Below the pieces are notes generated by a model. That model saw only the letters and a program-made list of their open reading frames with translations, ran no database searches and was not told the origin of the DNA. A DNA stretch of 64,000 nt. Origin: Rubritalea marina DSM 17716. GTDB taxonomy: Bacteria > Verrucomicrobiota > Verrucomicrobiia > Verrucomicrobiales > Akkermansiaceae. Every line of letters starts with the position of its first letter. The first letter of the stretch is position 1. A program made the position numbers and the translations under genes. Shown here in pieces: positions 283-16,336 of this stretch. The stretch lies in contig NZ_KB899252.1 of assembly GCF_000378105.1 (NCBI RefSeq), positions 124,001 to 188,000 of the forward strand. The letters run 5' to 3'.

Positions 283-633
283 TTACTGACCAGGCTTCGC
301 AGGGAGCATCCCATCAAAGATGATTGGATCACCGAATGCCCATCCGAATAGGCCAATGAGGATTGCAGCGAATGCAAGGGAACCGAAGAAGATCCAGTAG
401 ATCGCTTTCTTTTCGTGGTTCAAGTGCATGAAGACGTAGCCCACACAGCACATTTTGAAGGTAGCAATCGCGAGACCGAGGACCAAATCGTATGTATCGA
501 AACCGTGCCCACCAATGTCGAGTGACTCAACAGTGGCAACAAGTACGGTAAGAACGGTACCTACGAACAACACGCCAGCAATCGTGAAATAGAGCTTGAA
601 GTGTGACTTAATTTCTTCAGGAGTATCTGCCAT
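283..633 (-). CDS. ctaF: Cytochrome c oxidase subunit IV (prokaryotic CtaF/CoxD type)
   Basis: A 116-residue membrane protein with three hydrophobic helices at about residues 13-33, 50-72 and 79-101. The pattern of a short polar N-terminus, three helices and the segment GYVFMHLNHEKKAIYW between helices two and three fits the prokaryotic subunit IV family that accompanies aa3/caa3 oxidases. It follows ctaE by 38 bases. The family stabilises the oxidase core and has no cofactor. The bases before the start include the 8-mer ATAACTAC, shared with three other gaps of this operon. Confidence 0.85.
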   Translation of the reverse strand: MADTPEEIKSHFKLYFTIAGVLFVGTVLTVLVATVESLDIGGHGFDTYDLVLGLAIATFKMCCVGYVFMHLNHEKKAIYWIFFGSLAFAAILIGLFGWAFGDPIIFDGMLPAKPGQ

Positions 634-671: not shown

Positions 672-2333
672 TTACATGAGGTAGAAGACTGGGAATACGA
701 GGATCCATACCAAGTCAACAAAGTGCCAGAAAAGGCCGCCTACTTCAACACGGTTTGCAAGCCACTCCGGGTTGGAGTTGTACATCTTGCGACCGAAGAA
801 GAGATAGTAACCGAGGACGATAGCGCCGCCAATCACGTGAAGGCCGTGGAGACCAGTGATGGTGAAGTAGATCGCGTAGTAGTTATTCATCTTCGGAGAG
901 AACACAGAATCAAAGCGTACTTTTTCACGCGGTACTTCCACTTCTTTCGGGAAGGTGGCCTTGTGCTCCTTTGTCATGCCTGTGATGTCATAGATCATGG
1001 ATGGTTGGTGGTCATCCTTCACTTGCATCCAGTTCTCTTCGGTAATGTTGTAATCTAGCTGAGCGTAGGCATACATCTGATGCCACGTGACGCGGTAGAG
1101 ATCGATTTCTGTAGGCTTACGGCCTTCACCAGTGAGGGCATCTTTACGGCCTTCGAGGTGCTTTGCAAGATGCTTGCGCCATTCTTTGTGGGTCTTCCAG
1201 ATCTTACGAATCTTATCACCACCTTCACCTTCGAGGGCTAGGATCGGGGACTGTTCGATGAGATCGTCTGCATGCAGGCCCTTTGCTTCTGCCTTCATCA
1301 CCAAGTGACGGAAGTCGAGAGCATCAACGTAGCGGTAGTGGAAATTAGAATCACCAGCAGTACCGGTAACCACGGTGCCATCGAGTAGGCTGAGGTTGGT
1401 AGAATCGCCTTCCTTAGCGTCAGAGGTTCGGCCCCAGCCGGAGTTGAACTTGAGTTCAGCACCATCGGCGTCGAACACCATGTTACCATTAGCGAGTAAG
1501 AACTCGTTGTTGTTTTCTGCCTTCTTGACGAGTGCGGTGTGCACTTCAGCCACGGTGTTCTTGACCTTGGAATCGAAGTCCTTAAGCCCAACGAGTTCAT
1601 TGTGCTTGTTCGGATCGCGAGCGATGACCCAGGCATCTTTGAGAAGCTGTGTGCGAAGCTCTTGGTTGTGCGTACGAGCCTTGATGAAGTGCTGCTTAGC
1701 TTCTGCAATCACCTCTGGAGTGAGTGCTGTGCCAGCTTCAAACAAAACCTTTTCATTGAACGTATTGCCGGAGATCTCGCGGATCACATAATCACGCTTC
1801 AGGCTAAGCTTGTCCCCAGCCTGAGCAATGATAGAGGCAAGGTAGTTCGCGGTGGTGCTGTCTACAGAAAAGTTGACTTCCTTGGCTGCTACCACATAGG
1901 CATTGCCGTGGGTGCTGTCGCCCTCATCGTAGTGAAGGTGACCTTCTACCCAGCCGTAGTCTTCGGTCTGAGTGGCGTGGTGGTGGAACTTGCCTGCGTA
2001 CTCCTTGGCCTTGAACACCATGAATACTGCAGCACAGATGATCGTGATTGCCATGTTGGCAACGAACATGTTCCAATTGCGAAGCTTGAGGCCTGCCCAT
2101 GCGAACACCACAGTCACTGAAGATAGAATCAGGATGAAGGTGTTGATCAGACCTGGAAGTACTGGAAGAGTACGCTCCGGCCATGGGTAGTCTGCGTAGA
2201 TACGCAAGAAGATGTAGGAGGAGAACAAGCCACCGAAGAGCATCACCTCAGAGGCGAGGAACAACCAGATTGCGATCTTGGAGTTGTTCAGACCGGTGTC
2301 CTTGCGGGCGTTGACGATATAAGGAATTTCCAT
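672..2333 (-). CDS. ctaE: Cytochrome c oxidase subunit III with a ~360-aa insertion
   Basis: A 553-residue subunit III of the haem-copper oxidase. Helices at about 20-45, 58-83 and 88-110 carry the usual start of the family (LFLASEVMLFGG), and two more at about 484-512 and 530-553 carry TGLHGLHVIGG and the terminal WHFVDLVWILVF, so both ends are normal. Ordinary five-helix members have about 200 residues. Here residues from about 118 to 478, between helices three and four, form a hydrophilic, charged, His-containing domain without obvious helices, cysteines of a haem site or a known motif. The reading frame is open and the flanking helices are intact, so it is not a frameshift. The function of the insert is unknown; its loop position predicts a globular domain on one membrane face, perhaps contacting ACIII or a cytochrome. 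Confidence 0.92.
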   Translation of the reverse strand: MEIPYIVNARKDTGLNNSKIAIWLFLASEVMLFGGLFSSYIFLRIYADYPWPERTLPVLPGLINTFILILSSVTVVFAWAGLKLRNWNMFVANMAITIICAAVFMVFKAKEYAGKFHHHATQTEDYGWVEGHLHYDEGDSTHGNAYVVAAKEVNFSVDSTTANYLASIIAQAGDKLSLKRDYVIREISGNTFNEKVLFEAGTALTPEVIAEAKQHFIKARTHNQELRTQLLKDAWVIARDPNKHNELVGLKDFDSKVKNTVAEVHTALVKKAENNNEFLLANGNMVFDADGAELKFNSGWGRTSDAKEGDSTNLSLLDGTVVTGTAGDSNFHYRYVDALDFRHLVMKAEAKGLHADDLIEQSPILALEGEGGDKIRKIWKTHKEWRKHLAKHLEGRKDALTGEGRKPTEIDLYRVTWHQMYAYAQLDYNITEENWMQVKDDHQPSMIYDITGMTKEHKATFPKEVEVPREKVRFDSVFSPKMNNYYAIYFTITGLHGLHVIGGAIVLGYYLFFGRKMYNSNPEWLANRVEVGGLFWHFVDLVWILVFPVFYLM

Positions 2334-2377: not shown

Positions 2378-4216
2378 TTACTTAGCATCGTTGTTCTCTG
2401 ATGATTCAGCTTTCTTAGCAGGCTCAATCCATTGCGGGTAGAAGTCTTCTTCGCGGTCAGGGCGGCTGTATTCGTATGGGCCGCGGTACACTGCTGGCTC
2501 GGTGGTGAAGTTGCCGTGTCCTGGAGGCGTAGGAGTCGCCCACTCTAGGGTGGTTGCGTCCCATGGGTTGTCATTTGCAACTTCCTTACCGGCGAACCAT
2601 GAAGTGAAGAGGTTGATGATGAATGGGAGCTGAGCAGCTGCGAGGACGAATACTGCTACAGACATCACAGAGTTGAGCCCAATGTTGTCACGTACGATTT
2701 GACCGAAAACGTTCGCTGAATCAGCATCTACGACATAGGCGTCACCACCATTGTACCAGCGGCGGTGGAAACCAGCCATCCCCTGCATGAGCATTGGGAA
2801 GAATACAAAGTTGATTGCCACCAATGATGGCCAGAAGTGAAGGTGCCCAAGGAACACATTCATGTGACGACCGAACATCTTAGGGTACCAATAGTAGATA
2901 CCTGCGAAGAGGCCGAAGAGGATACCTGGTGCAACCACATAGTGGAAGTGGCCAATCACATAGTAAGTGTCGTGAAGGTGAAGACCTACCAAGTTGAACG
3001 CGAGCGGTAAACCAGTGAGGCCACCGATACCGAACATTGGAAGGAAGGCACAGGCCCAGATCATTGGCATCGTGAAGCGGATGGAACCACCCCAAAGTGA
3101 AATCAACAGCGAGGTGATCAAGATCACAGACGGCACGGAAATCATCACCGTGGTAACCTGGAAGAAGGTGGAGATCGAGGAGCTCATGCCAGTGATGTAC
3201 ATGTGGTGAGCCCATACGATGAAGGAAAGGAAGCCAAGGACCATGACAGCGAAGACCATCGACTTGTAGCCCCAGAGTGGCTTACGTGTGTTTGCTGGGA
3301 TAATTTCAGCCACACAAGCAATCGCTGGGAGAAGAAGAACGTACACCTCTGGGTGACCAAGGAACCAGAACAAGTGCTGGAACAAGAGTGGTGAACCACC
3401 ACCAGCTTGTTCGACCACACCAGTCGCTGAGGTGTAGAGACCAGATGGCTGGAAGAATGATGAGCCAAAGAAGCGGTCAACCACCTGCATGATACCAGCC
3501 ACTTCGAGTGGTGGGAATGCGAGCAGAAGAAGGAATGCGGTGACGAGCATCGCCCATACCAGGAATGGCATACGTAGCCATGTGAGACCCTTGGCACGTA
3601 GGTTGATGATCGTCGTGATCACGTTCACCGAGCCTAGTAGCGATGATGAGATTAGCATCACGAGACCGAGAAGCCACTGAGTCTGACCAGTGAAGAACTG
3701 GTGGGGGTGCTGGGAATCAGCAATTGAGGAAAGTGGTGGGTAGTTTGTCCAACCAGACTTTGCAGCACCAGACTCGAGGAAGAATGATCCACACATCATG
3801 AGACCACCGACAAGGTAGAGCCAGTATGACATCATGTTGAGTTTCGGGAATGCCATATCTGGCGCGCCGATCTGGAGTGGTGTCACGTAGTTACCAAAGG
3901 CACCAAAGCCAAGTGGCACAACACCGAGGAAAACCATGATGGTTCCGTGCATGGCACCGAACATGTTGTAGGTCTCGCCAGTCACCTTACCGTCAGTGAG
4001 CCAGCGCCCTTTCCAAGTGTCGGTGAACACCCAGCTCATCCACTCTGGGAGTGGTTCGTTAGGATACGCGATGCTCCAGCGCATCACCATCATAAGGAAG
4101 AAACCGAGTAGCAAGAACAGCAAAGCCGTCAAGCCGTATTGGATCCCAATGATCTTGTGATCTTGGGAGAAGATGTATTTCTGTACGAAACCTGGGTTGT
4201 GATCGTGGTCACTCAT
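2378..4216 (-). CDS. ctaD: aa3-type cytochrome c oxidase subunit I
   Basis: The catalytic subunit (612 aa, about 12 helices) reduces O2 to water and pumps protons. All metal ligands are visible: H90 (GAMHGT) and H425 for low-spin haem a, H423 for haem a3 (IGHFHYV), and H288, H337 and H338 for CuB (LGHPEVY and AHHMY). Y292 is the crosslinked tyrosine and E290 the D-channel glutamate; D120 (GAPDMAF) is the D-channel entry. It is therefore an intact A-family oxidase, in contrast to the CcoN-like protein upstream. It lies between a monohaem cytochrome c gene and ctaE, with 44-base gaps on both sides. Confidence 0.97.
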   Translation of the reverse strand: MSDHDHNPGFVQKYIFSQDHKIIGIQYGLTALLFLLLGFFLMMVMRWSIAYPNEPLPEWMSWVFTDTWKGRWLTDGKVTGETYNMFGAMHGTIMVFLGVVPLGFGAFGNYVTPLQIGAPDMAFPKLNMMSYWLYLVGGLMMCGSFFLESGAAKSGWTNYPPLSSIADSQHPHQFFTGQTQWLLGLVMLISSSLLGSVNVITTIINLRAKGLTWLRMPFLVWAMLVTAFLLLLAFPPLEVAGIMQVVDRFFGSSFFQPSGLYTSATGVVEQAGGGSPLLFQHLFWFLGHPEVYVLLLPAIACVAEIIPANTRKPLWGYKSMVFAVMVLGFLSFIVWAHHMYITGMSSSISTFFQVTTVMISVPSVILITSLLISLWGGSIRFTMPMIWACAFLPMFGIGGLTGLPLAFNLVGLHLHDTYYVIGHFHYVVAPGILFGLFAGIYYWYPKMFGRHMNVFLGHLHFWPSLVAINFVFFPMLMQGMAGFHRRWYNGGDAYVVDADSANVFGQIVRDNIGLNSVMSVAVFVLAAAQLPFIINLFTSWFAGKEVANDNPWDATTLEWATPTPPGHGNFTTEPAVYRGPYEYSRPDREEDFYPQWIEPAKKAESSENNDAK

Positions 4217-4260: not shown

Positions 4261-5037
4261 TTAGTTGTTTGCGTCAACGACTTCTCCAGTCTTTAGGTTG
4301 AGCATTGTTTCGGATGGAAGGTCAGCAGCCTCGAACTTGTGCGCGAGGTACTTTTCTAGATCGCTGGCAGTCATTGGCTTCTTGCCAAATTCTTTACTAA
4401 TCGCGCGGATTTCAGCAATTTGGTCGAGCGAGTAAATCTGGCCAACTTTATTACCAAAGCTATTCTGAATGTAGTAAATCAGGGCAGCAACATCGAAGTC
4501 GCTCCAGCCATCAGCCATTGCAGGCATCGCACCATTGTAGGTGGCACCCGCTACTTTGATCTGTCCGTTGAGGCCGTGGATGATGGTAAGCGCAGGAACC
4601 ACGCCAGAGCCTTCTACCCACTCAGAGCCTGCAAGTGGCGGAAACACCGCACCATTACCTGCACCACCTGGACCGTGACATGATGCACAGTTCTTGTAGA
4701 GAGCCGCACCTTTCTTCATGTAGGCGTCTGCGGCTAGTGCCATTGGAATCGCAGCCTTGCCATCATCAAACTGTGCACGCACGTAGTTTGGTTTCACAGA
4801 TTGCTCATAGTTGAAGAAGGAATCGGATGAGAAGAGCACACCGCCGCCAATGACAGCGACAATGAAGCCAGCAATCATGATCCAAGTGGAAACTGGCTCG
4901 AGACCATTCTCGCGGAGCTGCTGTTCACGTGAAACCGCAGCAGCATTACGAGTAACCTCTTCATGCGCTTTGGCGACGTTTGTTGATTCTTCGAGATCCG
5001 GCTTTGTTGGATCTACAGGTGTTTGATCAGATGACAT
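4261..5037 (-). CDS. Membrane-anchored monohaem cytochrome c
   Basis: A 258-residue protein with a cytoplasmic N-terminus of about 50 residues, one helix at about 51-71, then a periplasmic cytochrome c domain. The haem site is C117-A-S-C120-H121, and M171 or M174 (MPAM) is the likely axial ligand. Placement directly after the CcoO-like gene and the N-terminal helix recall CcoP, but CcoP has two haem domains and this has one. It may carry electrons from ACIII to the aa3 oxidase in place of a soluble cytochrome. The residues after about 200 form a charged tail without a motif. Confidence 0.85.
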   Translation of the reverse strand: MSSDQTPVDPTKPDLEESTNVAKAHEEVTRNAAAVSREQQLRENGLEPVSTWIMIAGFIVAVIGGGVLFSSDSFFNYEQSVKPNYVRAQFDDGKAAIPMALAADAYMKKGAALYKNCASCHGPGGAGNGAVFPPLAGSEWVEGSGVVPALTIIHGLNGQIKVAGATYNGAMPAMADGWSDFDVAALIYYIQNSFGNKVGQIYSLDQIAEIRAISKEFGKKPMTASDLEKYLAHKFEAADLPSETMLNLKTGEVVDANN

Positions 5038-5092
5038 CGGAATGTAACGGGTAGTTATTGAAATGGATGAACAAAAGTGGGAGTCGGCAGCA

Positions 5093-5857
5093 TTACTTGC
5101 CAGTAGCTTTCTTCTTGTTGCGTGAGTAGTTCATGGAGAATGGCACTTCGCCATCACGCTTGAGACCGAGGAGGTATGAGGCGAGGCGCTGAGCTTCTGC
5201 ACCAGGCACCAGCTCGAGTTCGCTGCTCGGATCGATCATCAGAGCATTCGGTTGCTCCTGGCCCTTGACCGCACTCTTCTTGAAGAAGCACTTGTTCGAT
5301 GGGCAGATGGACTTGGTATTGTCGGCACGGGGATTGTAGAGGTGTTGGTACACAGCCATCTCTGGGTTAAACTTTTGAGCAACACTGAGCTCTTCAACCT
5401 TCACGCCGAGCGCTTCAGCGGTCTTGGCATTTTCTTCAGCAGTTCTGATCTCCATACGGCGACCATAGTTACTAAGGTCTGGCCCCATGCGGGTCTCACC
5501 GATCCAAGCGAATGGCTCTTTGTCATAGTCCCAGAGGTTTGACTCACGACGCGTGTCACCGAGGTTAGGATCTTTGGCAATACCCGCGAGAGCCGGGCGG
5601 CCAAGGTCGTTACCTGCGTAGGTTGGGCGGGCAAGCTGGCTGTGGCACTGAGCACAACCTTCTGCACCGTAGACAGCAGAACCGTCAGTCACACGACCAG
5701 ACTTCACTGGTGTGTAGGCACCAGACTTGCCGTCTGCAACGTCGTCGTATTGAGGGATCTCCACCGCACGCATTTTTGCGAATGGTACAGCAACCACCAC
5801 GAGCCATGGGAATGCAAAGCTAGCAATGAGGCCGATAAAGAATGTTTTAACAGTCAT
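5093..5857 (-). CDS. CcoO-like monohaem cytochrome c with altered axial-ligand region
   Basis: A 254-residue protein with one N-terminal helix (about 5-27) and a haem motif C68-A-Q-C71-H72 in the context GCAQCHSQLARP, which is typical of CcoO, the cytochrome subunit of cbb3 oxidases. The segment RMGPDLSNYG (123-132) and HLYNPRA (172-178) also match CcoO. In CcoO the latter runs into SxMPxYPWL, whose Met is the haem ligand; here the sequence is SICPSNKCFF (183-192), so the Met is a Cys (C185) with a second Cys at 190. It pairs with the ligand-less CcoN-like gene upstream. Whether the haem has another axial ligand cannot be told from sequence. Confidence 0.85.
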   Translation of the reverse strand: MTVKTFFIGLIASFAFPWLVVVAVPFAKMRAVEIPQYDDVADGKSGAYTPVKSGRVTDGSAVYGAEGCAQCHSQLARPTYAGNDLGRPALAGIAKDPNLGDTRRESNLWDYDKEPFAWIGETRMGPDLSNYGRRMEIRTAEENAKTAEALGVKVEELSVAQKFNPEMAVYQHLYNPRADNTKSICPSNKCFFKKSAVKGQEQPNALMIDPSSELELVPGAEAQRLASYLLGLKRDGEVPFSMNYSRNKKKATGK

Positions 5858-5893
5858 GATTGTAGATAAATCGTTGGTAAGTTACGAGGTGGA

Positions 5894-7354
5894 TTAAGCT
5901 GGTGGCAGAGTTGGTTCATGGTGCTCAAGCAGCGTTGGGTGGCTACTGCGGCGACCGAGGCGGAGCCACATCATGAGCAAGTGGAAGCAGAAGAATACAT
6001 TCGCAAGTGCTACGAAGATCCAACCGACAGTGATGCCAACGGTGTACGCTAGCAGACGATCTTCAGATGCCTCGCCTGGTACGTCGAGAGCTTCAAGTGA
6101 GTAGCCGTGCATGAAAGCTCCGAGGATTCCACAGAAGAGACCGATGAATACCACACCGTAGAGTGACATCCAGAAGTGTGAGCGAATCAAACCTCCAGCA
6201 ATCCATTCACGATTGGTAACACGTGGCACGATGAAGTAAATCGCACCGAACATGCACATAGAGAAGAATCCATAGAGTGCGAGAATCTCGTAACCATAAG
6301 TGCCGCCGAAAGCAAACTGGGTGTACTTGAGCGCATCTGGGTGAGAAAGGATGCCGCCAACTACTGCAGTGGCGATGAGGCCAATGATACCTGCCACGGT
6401 GAAGCGCAGGGATGGTGAATGGGCCACAGTCTCAGACTTCCCTGTGGTGGTTCTGAGAACATTCACACCCACACAGATTGCTGGGATGATGAAGAGGATC
6501 GAAGCCGCAGCACCAGCGTACTGGAGGAATACTGGGATGGGAGCACCCATCACCTTCTGCATCCCAGCCCATGGGCCGATGATTGCGAGAGCCCAGAAGC
6601 CCAGAAGCGCTAGTTTGTATGAGTAGACCGGTCGACCAGTCACCTTTGGTGCGATATAGTATGCGGATGCAATCGCAACCGGCGTGAAGAAGAGGAAGAA
6701 CATGGCGGAGCGGAACCAGGCATTGATCCCTGCAGCCATCACCCCATTGCCAGCATCTGCGAAGCTATTCACAAAGACGTTGCCGGAGAGGAATACCCAT
6801 GGGAACCAGAACAGCGCTGCCATGAGATACCACTGAGAGATGTAGACGTGACCACCGCGACGCACGCGGAATGCAATCACAGACCAGATGCCAATCGCGA
6901 AGTAACATACGATGAGCAGCGGCCATACCCAATCAGGGAAATACATCCAAGGCTTGCCAGTACCGCCGCCGAGGAGAATACCAATGGAGCCAAGAGAAAT
7001 TACGAAATTCCATGCGTGGCCGATGCTGAGGATCACACCTGATTTTTTGCTTTCCTGGCGGGAAAGACGCGCCATCAGCCAGATGATGGTGCCGAAGGCT
7101 GCCTGTGCAGCCCATCCGTAGATGAAGGTTGCCATGTGCGCGCTGAACACACGACCGTAATTGAAGATGCCACAATCACCAAGGAATCCTGGTGAGTGAG
7201 ACTTGGCAGATGCCACCATTCCGAGAATGAGTGACAAAGCGAGCCAGGCTGCTCCACTGGTGAAGAAGAACATGACTGGGTGACGTAGCGAGCGGTCAAT
7301 GGACGCACGCAGCACCTTGTCTTCTACTTGTTGGCTTGTGATGTCTGAGGCCAT
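5894..7354 (-). CDS. CcoN-like oxidase subunit lacking haem b3/CuB histidines
   Basis: A 486-residue polytopic protein of about 12 helices that is clearly related to CcoN, subunit I of cbb3 oxidases: it has GRPVYSYKL (240-248), SQWYLMAALFWFPW (173-186) and IYFIVPR (372-378). Aligned by eye, the CuB His of YGHNAV is replaced (WFRSAM, 213-218), the CuB pair of AGPHHLHY by AGMQKVM (263-269), and the haem HVH of IGHVHSG by YEI (355-357). Only H73 (SAHMAT), equivalent to one low-spin haem b ligand, remains. The protein therefore cannot form a normal O2-reducing site. It sits between ACIII and an intact aa3 oxidase, with its CcoO-like partner downstream. A structural or electron-relay role in a supercomplex is inference. 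Confidence 0.9.
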   Translation of the reverse strand: MASDITSQQVEDKVLRASIDRSLRHPVMFFFTSGAAWLALSLILGMVASAKSHSPGFLGDCGIFNYGRVFSAHMATFIYGWAAQAAFGTIIWLMARLSRQESKKSGVILSIGHAWNFVISLGSIGILLGGGTGKPWMYFPDWVWPLLIVCYFAIGIWSVIAFRVRRGGHVYISQWYLMAALFWFPWVFLSGNVFVNSFADAGNGVMAAGINAWFRSAMFFLFFTPVAIASAYYIAPKVTGRPVYSYKLALLGFWALAIIGPWAGMQKVMGAPIPVFLQYAGAAASILFIIPAICVGVNVLRTTTGKSETVAHSPSLRFTVAGIIGLIATAVVGGILSHPDALKYTQFAFGGTYGYEILALYGFFSMCMFGAIYFIVPRVTNREWIAGGLIRSHFWMSLYGVVFIGLFCGILGAFMHGYSLEALDVPGEASEDRLLAYTVGITVGWIFVALANVFFCFHLLMMWLRLGRRSSHPTLLEHHEPTLPPA

Positions 7355-7403: not shown

Positions 7404-7736
7404 TTAGTTGAACTTCTTGCCGTGGGCCATGCTGGATGCGCTTGGCTGTTGGAGAAGACCCATTTCTTTACCGAGTCCGAATACGTCTTCTGGCTTCACC
7501 TTGACGGTGCCGTCGCCATTGTCGCTGTAGCTATTGCGCTCCTTGAGCTGCTCAGCCTTGATTTTGTTGTAGGTTTCAGTGCGAACTTTGCCTTTTTCAG
7601 TCTCGGCATCGATCACGTTGTCTTGCACCGCGTTCTTAACCAACACTGCTGCAATAGCAAATGATAGGAAGAGTGCAAGCCCCCACCAGAAGGTATTGAA
7701 TCGACGAAGTGGTGTGTCTCTTAGATTCGGTTCCAT
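7404..7736 (-). CDS. Single-helix membrane protein between ACIII and the oxidase-like genes
   Basis: A 110-residue protein with one hydrophobic segment (about 16-35) after a basic N-terminus, then a charged, probably helical stretch (about 40-70) and a polar tail. There is no cofactor motif and no family was recognised. Gaps of 42 and 49 bases to actF and the CcoN-like gene show that it is part of the operon. By position it could be a CcoQ- or CcoH-like accessory or a bridge between the two complexes; this is inferred only. Its leader carries the recurrent 8-mer ATAACTAC. Confidence 0.75.
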   Translation of the reverse strand: MEPNLRDTPLRRFNTFWWGLALFLSFAIAAVLVKNAVQDNVIDAETEKGKVRTETYNKIKAEQLKERNSYSDNGDGTVKVKPEDVFGLGKEMGLLQQPSASSMAHGKKFN

Positions 7737-7778: not shown

Positions 7779-9224
<1,446 letters not shown>

Positions 9225-9266: not shown

Positions 9267-9923
9267 TTACTGAGCAGCTTCGTAAGCGGCTTTGACTTGC
9301 TCGAGTGGAGCTTTGCGAGCGTATTGGAGTGAACGGATGTATGCGATGACTGCCCAGCGATCCTTGAGATCGATCTGATAACCAAATGCTGCCATGTTAC
9401 CACGGCCATTAGCGATCACGTCGAACATACCGCCGTCTGGCAGCGTGGAGTCGATGAGATTGAAGACACCTGGAACACCGTATGATGCTACCACGCCCTT
9501 ACCGTTACCAGACACGCCGTGGCATGCTGCACAGTTGGAGTCGAACACAACCTTACCGCGCTTGATGAACGCTTCGAGATTTGCTTCGTCGAGAGCGAGA
9601 TCAGACACTGGAAGTCCAGTACCGAAGACCTTCTCGTCAAACATCCCAGTGTGGTAGTAGCTGTTGTCGTTGGTGAATTGCTTGGCATTCTCGTCAGCAA
9701 GGTCCGCCTGAACGAGCCCTTGTGGAACGGTATTCTCGACCGGAAGGCGAGCACCATTGTTGTCAGCAAAGAACGGGCTGAGTTCCTGAGCGTCGATGCG
9801 GTCCTGCTCATCCATATCTGGGAAGATACGAATCGGAGTGTCCTTGAACTTTTCGCCACGGAAACCGCCGATGCTTACAACGAGTACAGCGAGAAGTGCG
9901 TAGATGATAAAGAAATAGCGCAT
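9267..9923 (-). CDS. actE: Alternative complex III subunit ActE (monohaem cytochrome c)
   Basis: A 218-residue monohaem cytochrome c. It has an N-terminal hydrophobic anchor (about 3-20) and a class I cytochrome c domain with C131-A-A-C134-H135 and probable axial Met M177 (GNMAAF). In ACIII, ActE is the subunit thought to pass electrons from the pentahaem/Fe-S chain to the downstream acceptor. It lies between actD and actF, with spacings of 26 and 42 bases. Confidence 0.93.
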   Translation of the reverse strand: MRYFFIIYALLAVLVVSIGGFRGEKFKDTPIRIFPDMDEQDRIDAQELSPFFADNNGARLPVENTVPQGLVQADLADENAKQFTNDNSYYHTGMFDEKVFGTGLPVSDLALDEANLEAFIKRGKVVFDSNCAACHGVSGNGKGVVASYGVPGVFNLIDSTLPDGGMFDVIANGRGNMAAFGYQIDLKDRWAVIAYIRSLQYARKAPLEQVKAAYEAAQ

Positions 9924-9949: not shown

Positions 9950-10501
9950 TTAGTCTTCTTCGACGAGTTCAATGTTGGATCCGCCGGCTTCTTCCAAGAG
10001 TGACTTGGTTTCTTCTGCGGAAAAATTAGGATCGCGGGCTTCGATGGCGATGAAGAAGCCATCGTCGGTCACGCGGTTGAATTGGCGGCTAGCAAAGAGC
10101 GGGTGGTTCAGGCGAGGAAGGCCCATCAGACCGAGCACACAGAAAAGCACCGTGAAACCTGAGAACAGGATGGTAAGCTCAAACATGATCGGGAAGAACG
10201 CCGCGGTGGTGAAGATGTTGGCTGGCTTGTCCTGCACAATTGTTGGGTAGATCAACACCTGGGTGATGAATGCCAAGCTAAAGCCGGTAAGGAGACCAGT
10301 GGATCCTCCGAAGAACACGAAGTATGGTAGGATCGAGCGCTTCACACCCATGGCATCATCGAGGCCGTGAATCGGGTATGAGGAATAACAATCCCACTTT
10401 TTAAATCCAGCATCGCGCACTTTTTCTGCACCTTTGTAGAGTGCTGATGCGCTTTCAAATTCGGCAAGGTAGCCGTAGACGCGTTTTACTTTTGTACTCA
10501 C
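9950..10501 (-). CDS. actD: Alternative complex III subunit ActD (DUF3341)
   Basis: A 183-residue protein with a soluble N-terminus beginning VYGYLAEFESASALYKGAEK, two hydrophobic helices at about 58-80 and 95-120, and an acidic C-terminal domain. This matches the DUF3341/ActD family, a small cofactor-free subunit that packs against ActC and ActF. It is located between actC (39-base gap) and actE (26-base gap). Confidence 0.92.
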   Translation of the reverse strand: MSTKVKRVYGYLAEFESASALYKGAEKVRDAGFKKWDCYSSYPIHGLDDAMGVKRSILPYFVFFGGSTGLLTGFSLAFITQVLIYPTIVQDKPANIFTTAAFFPIMFELTILFSGFTVLFCVLGLMGLPRLNHPLFASRQFNRVTDDGFFIAIEARDPNFSAEETKSLLEEAGGSNIELVEED

Positions 10502-10540: not shown

Positions 10541-12037
10541 TTAGCACTCAACGTTTGGATTTTCATTGAGCTCGTACTGATAGGAAGCTTCCTTCTTCAC
10601 GCCCTTATCTGGGTGTGCTTTGTGGTCGTCAAAGTGAGGGTCACTTTCGAGGAGTGTCCACTTCACCTCTGCAATGTTGATACATGGCAAGAAGCGTAGG
10701 AAGAGAAGGAAGAGTGTGAGGAACATACCGATAGTTCCTACGAAAGTAAGAACATCCACTGAGCTAGCCTCGTAGTACTTCCAGTCACCTGGGAGCCACA
10801 TACGTGGGAGTGTGGTTACGATGATCACGAATCGCTCGAACCACATACCGATGTTCACGAGCATACAAGTACCCATGACCACCCAGAGGTTCTCACGCAT
10901 TTTCTTGAACCAGAAGATCTGAGGAGCAATCACGTTACAGAACATCATCAGAACGTAAGCCCACCAGTACGGACCAGTGATACGTAGCTTGAAGGCTTCC
11001 ATCTCGAACTTCGCACCAGAGTAGAAGGCCACGAAAAGCTCCATGATGTAGGCGTAACCGACGATCGTACCAGTCGCTAGAATGATCTTACACATGTTTT
11101 CGATGTGCTTCATGGTGATCACGTCGTGCAGACCATAGATCGAACGCGCAGGCACCATGATGGTGATCACCATTGCGAATCCACCGAAGATCGCACCAGC
11201 CACGAAGTATGGCGGGAAGATCGTGGTGTGCCAACCTGGTACAGTTGAGGTCGCAAAGTCAAAGGAAACGATAGAGTGAACCGATAGAACCAGCGGAGTA
11301 GAAAGCGCTGCGAGGAGAAGGTACATCATTTCGTAGTGGCTCCACTGGCGGTTTCCGCCGCGCCAGCCGAGTGAAAAGATACCGTAGAGCACCTTGCGGA
11401 TACCTGGCTTCGCACGGTCGCGGATGGTTGCTAGGTCAGGAACCATGCCCATGTACCAGAAGATAAGTGAGATTGTGAAGTAGGTGGAAACCGCAAACAC
11501 GTCCCAAAGTAGTGGTGACTTGAAGTTCTGCCAGATCGCATTCGCGTTCGGAATAGGTGCAAGGAACCAAGCCATCCAAACACGCCCGACGTGGAAGGCT
11601 GGGAAAATACCCGCACAGCAAACCGCGAAGATCGTCATCGCTTCCGCCGCTCGGTTAATCGAGGTTCGCCAGTTCTGGCGCGTCAGGAAAAGAATCGCAG
11701 AGATCAGCGTACCAGCGTGGCCGATACCGATCCAGAATACGAAGTTCACAATCGGCCAACCCCACATCGTGCGGTTTGTGTTACCCCAGACACCAACACC
11801 AGTGGATACGAGGTAAGTCAGACCACCACCCACGCCAATGAGGGCGATGAGTGCGCACGGAATGAAGAGGATCCACCAAAGTAATGGTTGTGGCTTCTCG
11901 ACGATTCCGGCAATACGATCGGTGATCCATGAATAGGATCTGTTGTTGAGGATAAGCTTTTCACGCTCCAATACTGGGAGCTGGAAATTCTTATCTTCGG
12001 AGTTTTGCTCCGTACTTGTTGATGCTGTATCAGCCAT
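10541..12037 (-). CDS. actC: Alternative complex III subunit ActC (NrfD/PsrC-like, quinol-oxidising)
   Basis: A 498-residue membrane protein with a soluble N-terminus of about 50 residues and about ten helices. Segments such as [20 protein letters not shown] (94-113) and [14 protein letters not shown] are typical of the ActC/NrfD family. ActC carries the main quinol site of ACIII, next to the Fe-S domain of ActB. It follows actB by 55 bases. There are no haem-binding motifs, as expected for the family. Confidence 0.95.
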
Positions 12038-12092: not shown

Positions 12093-15000
12093 TTAGTGCA
12101 TGTGGACTGTTGCCTTACCGACATACTCTTTACCAGGCATGTTGGTGTTCGGGTTCTTCACGCGAGCGAGGTAGCTAGTGCGTGGACGTGTGCCGATGTA
12201 GTTCAAGAGATCGTAGGCGCGGTCATTGATGATCTTATTGTTCTCATCTTTGATGCGGCTGATCATGGACTTAGGGTCTAGAAGGTTACCGAAGACAATC
12301 GCGCCAGCGTCACAGGCATCTTGACATGCAACACGAACGGAGTCGGTCTTAGGCATGAGCTTTTCAGCAGTGATGGTTGCCTTGGTAGAACCGCCAGCCA
12401 CAGCCAGAGCTTCTTGCTTGGCGAGCTTCTTCGCTTCGATCTTAGCGGACTGAAGGCGCTGCACACAGTAGGTGCACTTCTCCATCACACCACGCATACG
12501 AACTGACACGTTCGGGTTGCGCTGGAGTGACTTAGAATCACCTTCCTGCTTCACACCCATCGGCCCCTTGTAGAGATTCTTGTGGATCAGCGGGTTGCGC
12601 TTATTGTAGTCAAAGAAGTTGAAACGACGTGCCTTGTACGGGCAGTTGTTTGCACAGTAACGCGTTCCGATACAACGGTTGTAAGCCATGGTGTTAAGGC
12701 CGTCTTCTGAGTGCACCGTGGCATTCACAGGACAAACGGTTTCACATGGAGCAGACTCACACTGCACACAAGCGACTGGCTGAGGAATCATCTCTGGAGA
12801 CTTTTCCCACTCGTCGGTACCTTCTGGGTACTGATCGAGGTCTGGTGCTGCAAAGTAGCGATCCATACGGATCCAGTGCATTTCACGTCCCATTGCCACC
12901 TGAGTCTTGCCCACTACTGGGATGTTGTTCTCAGCCTGGCAAGCAACGAGACAGGCATTACAACCATTACAAACGTTGAGGTCGATGCTCATCGCCCACT
13001 GCTGGGACTTGTCAAAGAGGTTTGGCTTTTCTTCACGGCCGGCAAGACCTGAGGTGATAGGACCACCATTGGTAACACCTTTGTAGAGGCTCATGTTCTC
13101 AGGGATGTGAGAATCCATGCCTTGCTTCTGCACACCCTTGATCTGAGCTGCGTAGTCTTTGTGAGTCAGCTTGTCTTCAGCTGTTGAGATCTCACGAGCA
13201 AGAGCGCGTCCGTACATGGAGTGGTGCTCCTGAGTACGTGCCATCTTGTAGGTTGCGCCGTTTTCAGCACGAGCGATGCTAGCTCCTTGGGCAAAGTAAT
13301 CAACACCACCACGGAGTGGGTAGGCGTTGAAGCCAGCGTTCACGCCGACAGAAGAAACGTTGCCTTTGCCATCCTGATTGTAGCTGATGCCTCCATTCTT
13401 AAACTCAGAAGCGAAGTGCTCATCGTAGCCCTGGCCGTAACCGAGGGAGATAGAAATCACATTGGCTGCCATCCCGAAGGCAACAATCACTGGAGCCTCT
13501 AGAGTCTTACCATTGATCGTGATTTTCGCTACTGGAGCAAAGAGGCTAGGACCTTCACCTTCTTCAGGCACATCGGACTTCTTGAGGTCGCGATCATCAA
13601 AACCAAGGCTCGCCCACCAAGCTGCACCCTTCTTCTCAAGCTCTACGAGCTCTTCGTAGATGCCGAGATCTTTGGCTGTCTCTGGCGCGAGGTAAATTGC
13701 GTTATCCCAGCACACCTTGGAGATTGGATCCGGTGCTTCCTGGAGCCATGCGTTGTCGATGTAGCGACCATCAAAAACGGAACCGTCCGTGCTGTAGACG
13801 ATGTCGAGTGCCTTCGCTGACGGCTCAGCTTGAGCCTTGAGCGCCGGCACTGGAGGAGCAGCGACTACTGAAGCGAGTGCGTACTGACTACCTTTGAGGA
13901 AGCCTTCACGAAGAAGCTTCATCCAGGCCGCTTCAGCAGCTTTGGCACCAGTCACAGGATGGACAGTGGAATCGAATGTCTTACGTACTGCAGTGTATGC
14001 AGGGGAAAGTGCGGATGTGTTTGAGTCGTGGAGCTTGCCATCGCGAAGCGCGAGAAGTAGCTCAAGCTCAGAAACGCCGCCGTAAAGCGGAAGAATCATC
14101 GGCTGCACGATGGTGTACACACCAGATGAGGTAAAGGAATCGCCCCAGCTTTCAAGGTAGTGAGCAGCGGGGACGTGCAGGTCTGCAGCATTTGCAGACG
14201 CATTCAAACGAAGACCAAGCTGAACGATCTTCACCTTGGAAAGCGCTTCTGTGAGTGCTTCATTTTCCAAGACTGGGTTCGCAGGGGTGAGTAAGATCAC
14301 GGTATCGAGCGCCTTAGCATTGATATCTGCCACAAGCTGTTCCGCATTAGCAAGACCGGCCTTCTGGGTCTTCACTGCGTTGAGTGATTTACCGTAAGCA
14401 CCGAGCTTCACATTCACAAGGTGCGCGAGATCGTGAAGCTCCTTATCGTAGCGGGAACCTAGAAGCACCAATGCTTCACCGCGATGCTTGGCGAGATCCT
14501 TGGCACACTCTTTGACCCACTTTTCCTTCTTACCAGTAAACTTACCACCAGGGATGGCAACTGACACACCGAGTTCACTTGCCAACTGGGCAAGGAAGCG
14601 ACCAATCTGAGATGGAGCCACTGGAGCACGGTGATCGGCCATACCGCCGGTCAGTGAGTACGTCGGCTCAGCAACATAGAGACGGTTGAGATTCTTCTTA
14701 TTCTGTACCGCATCCTTATCGTAGTTGCGGCCATTGACGTGGCGACGATCGTAGAAGCCCTTTACTGGGCCCTGCTTATCAAGCTCTAGGAAGTCTGAAT
14801 CGAGAGAGAGGATTGCTTTCGCTTGTGCATAGTCAGCAACAAGCTCAGCGCCTGCACCAAAGATCGCTTCATTCGAAGCCTTGCGGCCTGCACCTGCAAG
14901 CGCCTCGTAGGAGTAAAACTTCGCGCCAGCAAACTTCTGCGCCAACTCACCGCGAAGGTGCGTGCGAGTTGCTGAGTCATCTTCACCGAAGACAAAACCC

Positions 15001-15557
15001 ACCTTACCGGAAGCTGTCCACTCAGCGAGCTGCTTTTCAGCTGTAGCACGGCTCACCTTTTGCCCTTTATTGAGGAAGTCGCGGGAGCGTGCTGGATTGT
15101 AAAGATCAAGAATTGATGCCTGATCAAAAGCGCTCTGACCATCATTACCTGGGTGAATGCGGTTAGGCTCGAGCTTGGTTGGACGGCCCTGGTAGTTTGT
15201 CACCACTGCCGGCACGGCACCTCCTGCTGTTGGGATAGATGATGCGTAGTAGAGCGGCTTGCCGGGGATCACCCATTCTGGAGCGTTCACGTAAGGCACG
15301 ATAAGCTCTTCTGGGCGACGACACGCTGCCAAACCGAAACCTGCAAGTGCGGTTGAAGCCCCCATGACCTTCATGAAACTACGGCGGGATGTCTCACGAT
15401 CATCTTCATCGATCATCGTCTCAGCGGCACGTGGAAACTCGCGCTCCAACCACTGACGAAGACCGTGTGTGTCTTCTAACTCACCAGCACTGCGCCACAC
15501 CTTCGTGCTCGCTTCATTCGCTGGAATCTCTGGATGTTGCCATTTACGTTTGCTCAT
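12093..15557 (-). CDS. actB: Alternative complex III subunit ActB (molybdopterin-like plus Fe-S fusion)
   Basis: An 1154-residue fusion. The N-terminus carries a twin-arginine motif (RRSFMK, 58-63), so the protein is exported folded. The first ~840 residues resemble a molybdopterin oxidoreductase domain, which in ACIII has lost its cofactor. The last ~300 residues are a PsrB-like ferredoxin domain with Cys clusters starting C863-C866-C869-C873, then CVQCESAPCETVC, CIGTRYCANNCP, and CTYC with a later CQDAC; the usual set is three [4Fe-4S] and one [3Fe-4S]. It transfers electrons from ActC toward ActA/ActE. It is preceded by actA, with a 38-base gap. Confidence 0.96.
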   Translation of the reverse strand: MSKRKWQHPEIPANEASTKVWRSAGELEDTHGLRQWLEREFPRAAETMIDEDDRETSRRSFMKVMGASTALAGFGLAACRRPEELIVPYVNAPEWVIPGKPLYYASSIPTAGGAVPAVVTNYQGRPTKLEPNRIHPGNDGQSAFDQASILDLYNPARSRDFLNKGQKVSRATAEKQLAEWTASGKVGFVFGEDDSATRTHLRGELAQKFAGAKFYSYEALAGAGRKASNEAIFGAGAELVADYAQAKAILSLDSDFLELDKQGPVKGFYDRRHVNGRNYDKDAVQNKKNLNRLYVAEPTYSLTGGMADHRAPVAPSQIGRFLAQLASELGVSVAIPGGKFTGKKEKWVKECAKDLAKHRGEALVLLGSRYDKELHDLAHLVNVKLGAYGKSLNAVKTQKAGLANAEQLVADINAKALDTVILLTPANPVLENEALTEALSKVKIVQLGLRLNASANAADLHVPAAHYLESWGDSFTSSGVYTIVQPMILPLYGGVSELELLLALRDGKLHDSNTSALSPAYTAVRKTFDSTVHPVTGAKAAEAAWMKLLREGFLKGSQYALASVVAAPPVPALKAQAEPSAKALDIVYSTDGSVFDGRYIDNAWLQEAPDPISKVCWDNAIYLAPETAKDLGIYEELVELEKKGAAWWASLGFDDRDLKKSDVPEEGEGPSLFAPVAKITINGKTLEAPVIVAFGMAANVISISLGYGQGYDEHFASEFKNGGISYNQDGKGNVSSVGVNAGFNAYPLRGGVDYFAQGASIARAENGATYKMARTQEHHSMYGRALAREISTAEDKLTHKDYAAQIKGVQKQGMDSHIPENMSLYKGVTNGGPITSGLAGREEKPNLFDKSQQWAMSIDLNVCNGCNACLVACQAENNIPVVGKTQVAMGREMHWIRMDRYFAAPDLDQYPEGTDEWEKSPEMIPQPVACVQCESAPCETVCPVNATVHSEDGLNTMAYNRCIGTRYCANNCPYKARRFNFFDYNKRNPLIHKNLYKGPMGVKQEGDSKSLQRNPNVSVRMRGVMEKCTYCVQRLQSAKIEAKKLAKQEALAVAGGSTKATITAEKLMPKTDSVRVACQDACDAGAIVFGNLLDPKSMISRIKDENNKIINDRAYDLLNYIGTRPRTSYLARVKNPNTNMPGKEYVGKATVHMH

Positions 15558-15595: not shown

Positions 15596-16336
15596 TTATC
15601 GGTGACATGTCGCACAGCTTTCTTTCGGCTGCACATCCCAATGGTTCTTAAGGAAGGTGCCAACCACCTCCTGCACTTCTTCCTCAGAAGCCGCAGAGTC
15701 GTAGTCCTCACCAAATACCGCAGCCCTAAAATCAGGGTGCGTCTCAACATAATTTTTCGCGGTGTAATCAAGATTGAAAACCTCCTCGAGCGGACGAAGG
15801 TGCTTCTCAGGAGCACGGTGACAATCCAAACAGAAACCCATGCTGTGATCCTTCGCTTGGTAGACCACACGCATCTCGTTCACATTACCGTGACAGCTCA
15901 CACAGGAAACACCACGGCTGAGGTGAGCGGAGTGATCAAAGAACACATAGTCAGGTGACTTGTGAATGCGCACCCACTTCACCGGCTCGCCAGTGTAACC
16001 TTCAAAAGACTTATCAATCGCACGACGGAGAGGCACAAGCTTCTCACTTTCCGTCTTCACATGCTGGTGACATGTCCAACAACGATCAGCTGTGGGAATA
16101 TTTGCATGCCCTGACTCCTCTGCAAAAGAGTGACAGAAACGACAATCCATACCCAACTGCTTCACGTGCAGCTCATGATCATACGGGATCGGCTGATCCG
16201 GCATGTAGCCAACACGCTGAGTCTTAGGAGTCGCGTAGTAAGAGAATGCAATTACAACACCAAATGCAAGAGCACCGAGACAGATCGCAATCTTGATTGG
16301 TAGTAGGTTGGTCCAACGAGGAAAAATATTAGCCAT
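15596..16336 (-). CDS. actA: Alternative complex III subunit ActA (pentahaem cytochrome c)
   Basis: The first gene of the operon: 246 residues with one N-terminal helix (about 13-34) followed by a periplasmic multihaem domain. Five CXXCH sites are visible, with haem His at 69, 90, 149, 173 and 245; this is the usual number for ActA. The last site is only one residue from the C-terminus (CATCHR). ActA relays electrons from the ActB Fe-S clusters to ActE or cytochrome acceptors. A 315-base intergenic region lies upstream. Confidence 0.95.
   Translation of the reverse strand: MANIFPRWTNLLPIKIAICLGALAFGVVIAFSYYATPKTQRVGYMPDQPIPYDHELHVKQLGMDCRFCHSFAEESGHANIPTADRCWTCHQHVKTESEKLVPLRRAIDKSFEGYTGEPVKWVRIHKSPDYVFFDHSAHLSRGVSCVSCHGNVNEMRVVYQAKDHSMGFCLDCHRAPEKHLRPLEEVFNLDYTAKNYVETHPDFRAAVFGEDYDSAASEEEVQEVVGTFLKNHWDVQPKESCATCHR

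Follow-up and report, generated by a model that had tools for sequence, protein, structure and literature searches.

The window, a stretch of 64,000 nucleotides from Rubritalea marina DSM 17716, carries within an operon for alternative complex III (ACIII) a gene for a CcoN-like subunit without oxygen-reducing centre (5894..7354, minus strand). This protein of 486 amino acids, hereafter CcoN', was recognized from its intact reading frame, a match to COX1, an alignment of the ligand positions and a structural model. The best explanation, to which we assign a probability of about 0.6, is that an ACIII-cbb3 oxidase has repeatedly become an oxygen-inactive scaffold, and that its two cytochromes c would carry the electrons of ACIII onward. 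Genes of the CcoN' family and their products are called N below.

The CcoN-like subunit and its operon

CcoN' matches the Pfam family COX1 at 138.5 bits (cut-off 34.8) and scores 101.4 bits with the NCBIfam ccoN model, far under the curated cut-off of 583. Its frame is open over the 486 codons, as the first-pass annotation had stated in reporting no frameshift. The five sequences matched in the PDB are all CcoN subunits of cbb3 oxidases, with E values from 1e-22 to 7e-19. The structural modelling suggested in that annotation confirmed the CcoN fold. An AlphaFold prediction that used 19 relatives (pLDDT 86.6, pTM 0.89) superimposes on CcoN of 3mk7 with a Z score of 46.1 and an rmsd of 2.3 over 446 residues, while structures of NorB, an enzyme that shares the ligand columns of CcoN, score lower (Z 41.7). 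In sequence as in fold, the closest counterpart of CcoN' is cbb3 CcoN, and the protein has the kinship expected of the C-family (cbb3) of haem-copper oxygen reductases. Two motifs had been named as matching CcoN; GRPVYSY is indeed common to CcoN, but SQWYLMAALFWFPW belongs to the ACIII-linked family and not to canonical CcoN. The genome carries also, elsewhere, a fused CcoNO with all ligands present.

Ligand positions are numbered here as in P. stutzeri CcoN, which we take to be H60 and H347 for the low-spin haem b, H207, H257 and H258 for CuB, H345 for the proximal side of haem b3 and Tyr251 for the active site; the letters agree with the 3mk7 alignment. Aligned with true CcoN, CcoN' keeps the low-spin ligand H60 as H73, the only one that the first-pass annotation had found retained, while the other, H347, is I357 and the pair is incomplete. 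None of the three CuB histidines is left (H207 is S216, H257 is Q266 and H258 is K267), Tyr251 is G260 and the haem b3 proximal histidine is Y355. Six of the seven catalytic positions are thus gone, and the earlier claim that the centre had been erased was correct. Its list of replacements, FRS, MQ and YEI, holds in substance, with MQ placed one residue off. The histidines that might have filled the vacant haem and CuB positions do not align with them: H113 falls at no ligand column, and H169 and H393 align with histidines outside the ligand columns in three and in all six, respectively, of the six canonical CcoN references.

The loss is concentrated on the catalytic positions. Outside the seven ligand and tyrosine columns, 124 columns of the family alignment show no variation in the 21 intact rows; CcoN' keeps 81 of these and one of the seven. 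Mean retention over the 79 eroded rows, in which a few genomes appear twice, is 16% at the seven columns and 60% at the 124, showing that the loss is selective and not due to chance. The window protein would be left without CuB and b3 sites, could bind a low-spin haem only weakly if at all, and is probably devoid of haem b.

The operon, read on the minus strand, has the order ActA, B, C, D, E, F, a protein of 110 amino acids, CcoN', CcoO, CcoP, CoxA, CoxC, CoxD and CoxB. All six act genes lie in order upstream of CcoN'. ActA (15596..16336) has five CXXCH motifs, a number found also in its homologues. It is followed by the iron-sulphur, molybdoenzyme-like subunit ActB (12093..15557), named by its operon position, the membrane subunit ActC (10541..12037), named by position and gene order, and ActD (9950..10501; Pfam ActD, 190.6 bits). 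ActE (9267..9923) is a monohaem cytochrome c that matches Pfam Cytochrome_CBB3 and Cytochrom_C and is likewise named by position. ActF (7779..9224) has no Pfam match of its own and is assigned from its place in the conserved order, and the small protein that separates it from CcoN' (7404..7736) matches neither Pfam nor NCBIfam families.

Both cytochrome c partners expected in a cbb3 oxidase follow CcoN'. CcoO (5093..5857) is a FixO-like monohaem cytochrome c with a CAQCH motif (Pfam FixO, 36.6 bits). Canonical CcoP has two haem motifs; the CcoP-like protein of the window (4261..5037), which matches Cytochrom_C and Cytochrome_CBB3, has a single one, CASCH, and an N-terminal hydrophobic anchor recognized by eye. 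Next come an aa3-type CoxA (2378..4216; Pfam COX1, 432 bits) with the catalytic motifs GHPEVY, AHHMY and GHFHY, as judged by eye, the subunit III CoxC (672..2333) and the subunit IV CoxD (283..633; Pfam COX4_pro). The Pfam COX3 match of CoxC is split in two stretches by a long insertion, and long CoxC frames occur in relatives too. CoxB lies about 0.2 kb beyond the window edge and must be counted for the operon to have the 14 genes first attributed to it. Its CuA motif is full by eye, so that the aa3 oxidase of the operon looks complete and the possibility that CcoN'-O-P replaces an absent CuA subunit was rejected.

Intact and eroded forms across the Verrucomicrobiia

The family is widespread around the window's genome: 55 of 58 relatives carry it at E <=1e-60 (in one case split over two contigs), one has only a weaker match and two have none. 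The CcoN' query matched 91 of 288 genomes sampled evenly across the phylum, and 65 of these 91 hold the ACIII-linked family. All 65 belong to the window's class, Verrucomicrobiia as judged by named relatives, and the other matches that were fetched fall outside the family. A search for the same gene in other ACIII operons had been proposed, and of the 66 genomes in the class whose ActD match is clear, 65 have N, the Akkermansia-like genus being counted apart; 13 genomes of that genus gave a weak ActD match. ActD was found also in 22 genomes outside the class, among which the neighbourhood was inspected for L104 only. N sits between ActF and CcoO in the 57 loci with flanks. Six duplicate loci were removed before the family alignment and 19 rows before the family tree.

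The operon shows local variations. ActF and N are several kilobases apart in one genome (G127; loci L090 and L119), which by analogy may be an insertion of nos genes like that of Methylacidiphilum caldifontis IT6, whose nos cluster lies within the ACIII genes according to the accessible text of PMC11102522. The operon is broken between ActD and ActE in G042 (L055, L120) and, by coordinates, in G046 and G049; in L055 ActA-D are on a separate contig and ActE, ActF, N, O, P and the cox genes stay together. Three loci (L052, L053, L084) have an additional CcoP-like frame between ActF and N, and in family f17 (L063, L132) N and CcoO are intact and no CcoP is recognizable.

A few operons dispense with N, CcoO and CcoP. 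In G064, from the methanotroph family f8, ActA-F are followed directly by CoxC, CoxD and CoxB (L112), the three genes are gone from this place and CoxA is on a different contig (L148). No N of the CcoN' family was found in this genome, and a moved copy was rejected as two further COX1 frames on contig C36 fail the family profile. G074 and G198 each have, besides the first, a divergent ACIII operon that includes a CoxB-CoxA-CoxC set and lacks N-O-P (L117, L118). A Verrucomicrobiota isolate is described, in the part of PMC13274419 available to us, with actABCDEF beside a caa3 oxidase and ccoNOP absent. These cases together indicate that ACIII can work without the N-O-P module.

All six histidines and the tyrosine are present in N of 21 of the 65 genomes. 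The first-pass annotation had asked if the histidine positions are empty across homologues: they are eroded in the other 44, where zero, one, two or three of the seven residues are left in 8, 30, 4 and 2 genomes, respectively. It had also envisaged that homologues would bear the histidines and that the window gene was simply decaying. Such homologues do exist, but their presence in the same ACIII operon and in the same class identifies erosion as a secondary loss and not as simple decay. In two genomes of one genus (G058, G201), searched for COX1 and cytochrome bd, the intact N is the only COX1 and cytochrome bd is lacking, which makes it most likely that the intact form, and with it the ancestral module, is a working oxidase. 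A separate COX1 above 400 bits, A-type-like by score, was detected in all 35 eroded genomes tested and is missing from 4 of the 21 intact ones, the four representing two genera.

Changes of state were read as losses because the regain of six histidines and a tyrosine is implausible. The N tree (48 rows, ligand columns removed) requires at least two losses and a single origin of erosion appears in 0 of 200 bootstrap trees, though the AU test on this tree does not reject a single origin (p 0.15). The trees of neighbouring genes do reject it: at least seven changes are forced by starred branches in the ActB+ActC tree (45 rows; AU p 2.5e-46) and at least four in the CcoO+CcoP tree (43 rows, outgroup L104 and CcoP-less L063 excluded; AU p 4e-123). 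The two disagree within the opitutaceal rows, where exchange of the N-O-P cassette or long-branch effects are possible causes; for this reason only four losses or more are claimed, and the neighbour-gene trees suggest that the eroded centre arose in at least four lineages. In L057 and L059 both ligands of the low-spin haem persist and the CuB and b3 sites are gone, which suggests that the oxygen site was lost first in their lineage or lineages.

CoxA is found in the fetched locus of 18 of 33 eroded operons against 1 of 11 intact ones (raw table for the ActBC tree), and 15 of the 33 have no CoxA in the fetched stretch. The idea that erosion is made possible by a neighbouring aa3 operon found no support once phylogeny was taken into account, with 0 of 6 independent pairs in the expected direction, a number of pairs too small to reach 0.05. 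Since loss of the centre does not follow the presence of aa3 genes nearby, the connection of ACIII to aa3 oxidase stands as a single case.

Conservation and possible role of the eroded module

The partners of eroded N have kept their haem-c motifs. A haem-c motif is present in CcoO of all 81 loci, so that the retention of a CcoO-like partner noted earlier in the window extends to the family, and in CcoP of 79; the two loci where CcoP went undetected have an intact N and belong to one family. Part of this count comes from the 57 family loci with flanking DNA and an alignment row, L004, L009, L011-L013, L016 and L020-L042 lying outside that part.

Eroded N genes are under purifying selection, as the first-pass annotation had supposed from the state of the gene. 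Their dN/dS is 0.02-0.19 in 17 of 18 pairs, the remaining one being saturated; it is 0.04-0.19 in the seven pairs with dS <0.8, and dS exceeds 0.8 in the other 10 of the 17. The reference values are 0.13 for intact N (one computable pair of three) and 0.24 for a true CcoNO pair. The rate of N relative to ActB+C is 1.3 (range 0.99-1.95) in the window's order and 0.8 for intact N. Five family residues absent from canonical CcoN (N116, P140, P185, W186, W384) are kept in 97-100% of the 79 eroded rows and may be contact sites.

These figures bear on the view that N is a leftover that decays like a pseudogene and is slow to vanish inside an essential operon. Ligands gone in many lineages and a genome without detectable N of the family (G064) would agree with it, and so would the opitutaceal eroded rows, where N changes at roughly three times the rate of ActB+C (median distance ratio 3.1), a rate that also fits slow decay there. 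We nevertheless hold decay to be quite unlikely as the general explanation: the family matches among the 58 relatives contain no in-frame stop, and the low dN/dS, even with most pairs at high dS, the moderate relative rate in the window's order and the near-invariant family residues all speak for upkeep.

A second view sees in N a protein that is still a cytochrome b: H73 and an unconventional partner ligand would bind one haem, and the subunit would serve as membrane electron relay or sensor. The H73 column has histidine in 62% of the 79 eroded rows, a set weighted to the window's order, against 0-18% at the six other columns, and L057 and L059 retain both low-spin ligands despite loss of CuB and b3. 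The position of the second ligand is however I357 in the window, and in the even sample the H73 column is histidine in just 19 of the 44 eroded genomes, being F, A, Q, S, L or R elsewhere. With a single low-spin ligand left, and so often lost, an electron relay through CcoN' itself is improbable, and we judge the haem-binding view unlikely. The candidates for carrying electrons are CcoO and CcoP, and a structural role for eroded N is reached by exclusion.

The preferred reading, that of a scaffold derived from an oxidase, would thus run as follows. A cbb3-type (C-family) oxidase module would have become fixed to ACIII at the root of the Verrucomicrobiia or close to it, and oxygen chemistry would have been lost from it later in several lineages. 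ACIII would oxidize menaquinol and pass the electrons via ActA and ActE, while CcoN' would dock CcoO and CcoP onto ACIII. Their haems would then hand the electrons to an acceptor, for which the CuA subunit of the operon's own aa3 oxidase is the simplest candidate in the window; in other genomes it would be a soluble cytochrome or a different oxidase. The original proposal of a scaffold or electron relay between ACIII and the intact aa3 oxidase survives in its scaffold part as the best reading; its relay through CcoN' and its specific connection to the adjacent aa3 oxidase do not.

Docking may be imagined on the oxidase side instead, with N'-O-P forming no part of ACIII and serving the neighbouring aa3 oxidase as a specialized donor complex or as a factor for its docking or assembly. 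The position of the N-O-P genes between ACIII and aa3 genes in the window, in Verrucomicrobiales and in methanotroph loci would suit this arrangement. However, CoxA is absent from the fetched DNA of the eroded opitutaceal operons (three were read gene by gene), and no COX1 was found in two Akkermansia-like genomes, yet the loci of that genus keep relic N-O-P. We hold this arrangement, too, to be quite unlikely.

The Akkermansia-like loci have a distinct organization. All five that were fetched (L111, L113-L116) contain ActC-D-E-F followed by a single frame in which CcoO and CcoP are fused. A relic N precedes the fused O-P in the four loci analysed, giving products of 772-813 amino acids, counted from a chosen start methionine, with both CXXCH motifs; the relic was identified by profile comparison (hhalign 96.6%, E 6e-10). 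ActB is encoded elsewhere in six genomes tested, and cytochrome bd is present in the sole genome tested for it. The fused loci, and the two genomes where COX1 was not found, show that the O-P arm can persist with ACIII without a detected haem-copper oxidase. We give even odds to a wider reading in which a class-wide arm of ACIII, once an oxidase, was converted several times in parallel to a structural holder of two output cytochromes c, and became a single fused protein in Akkermansia-like bacteria, with no haem-copper oxidase found in the two such genomes tested.

Relation to known respiratory systems

That ACIII genes and C-type oxidase genes lie together is already known. According to the accessible parts of PMC8498564 and PMC6688271, ACIII genes adjoin C-type oxidase genes, taken as a cbb3 oxidase, in verrucomicrobial methanotrophs; PMC8498564 names Opitutaceae too, and the cbb3 type is named also in the available text of PMC10205796 and PMC11102522. 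For the missing ligands, a search of titles and abstract starts in the open-licence PubMed Central literature retrieved no report of a ligand-less CcoN or of an oxidase pseudoenzyme. N of L086 (G207), likely the copy of strain Kam1, has S, V, F, E, S, H and S at H60, H347, H345, H207, H257, H258 and Tyr251, respectively, hence one of the seven catalytic residues, a histidine at one CuB column, and no complete site. In the same locus ActC is found in two frames of 381 and 112 amino acids (about 4823-6270), possibly due to a frameshift or a sequencing error. Genes of the PmoA/AmoA family are present in all five f8 genomes tested, out of six in the sample.

Terminal oxidase genes are often read as a sign of oxygen use and of oxygen affinity. 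The gene type published as cbb3 oxidase is without oxygen site in most sampled members of the class, including acidophilic methanotrophs, and one paper ties the oxygen affinity of these methanotrophs to such a cbb3 oxidase, which its accessible text judges in line with high oxygen affinity (PMC6688271). If the preferred reading is true, a haem-copper oxidase has turned into a pseudoenzyme and a part of the respiratory wiring. Because intact, half-eroded and fully eroded forms occur in the same operon, each step on the path from enzyme to scaffold is open to test, and the eroded module offers a handle on how ACIII hands electrons on.

Three systems can be compared with the window. ActABCDEF stand beside an aa3-type oxidase both in the window and in the ACIII-aa3 and ACIII-caa3 supercomplexes of Flavobacterium johnsoniae and Rhodothermus marinus, in which ACIII is reported to pass electrons directly to the oxidase; the accessible text of the two papers describes no CcoN-O-P module there (PMC5928083, PMC8552683). 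The operons with an ACIII-adjacent cbb3 oxidase published for Methylacidiphilum and Opitutaceae have the same layout as that of the window. The cbb3 oxidase itself, represented by 3mk7, has in common with CcoN' the fold, the length, the GRPVYSY and HFW motifs, the CcoO and CcoP partners and the histidine at H60. CcoN' differs from its CcoN in lacking the CuB histidines, the active-site tyrosine, the b3 histidine and one haem b histidine, in being encoded by a stand-alone gene within an ACIII operon, and in having a CcoP partner with one haem motif.
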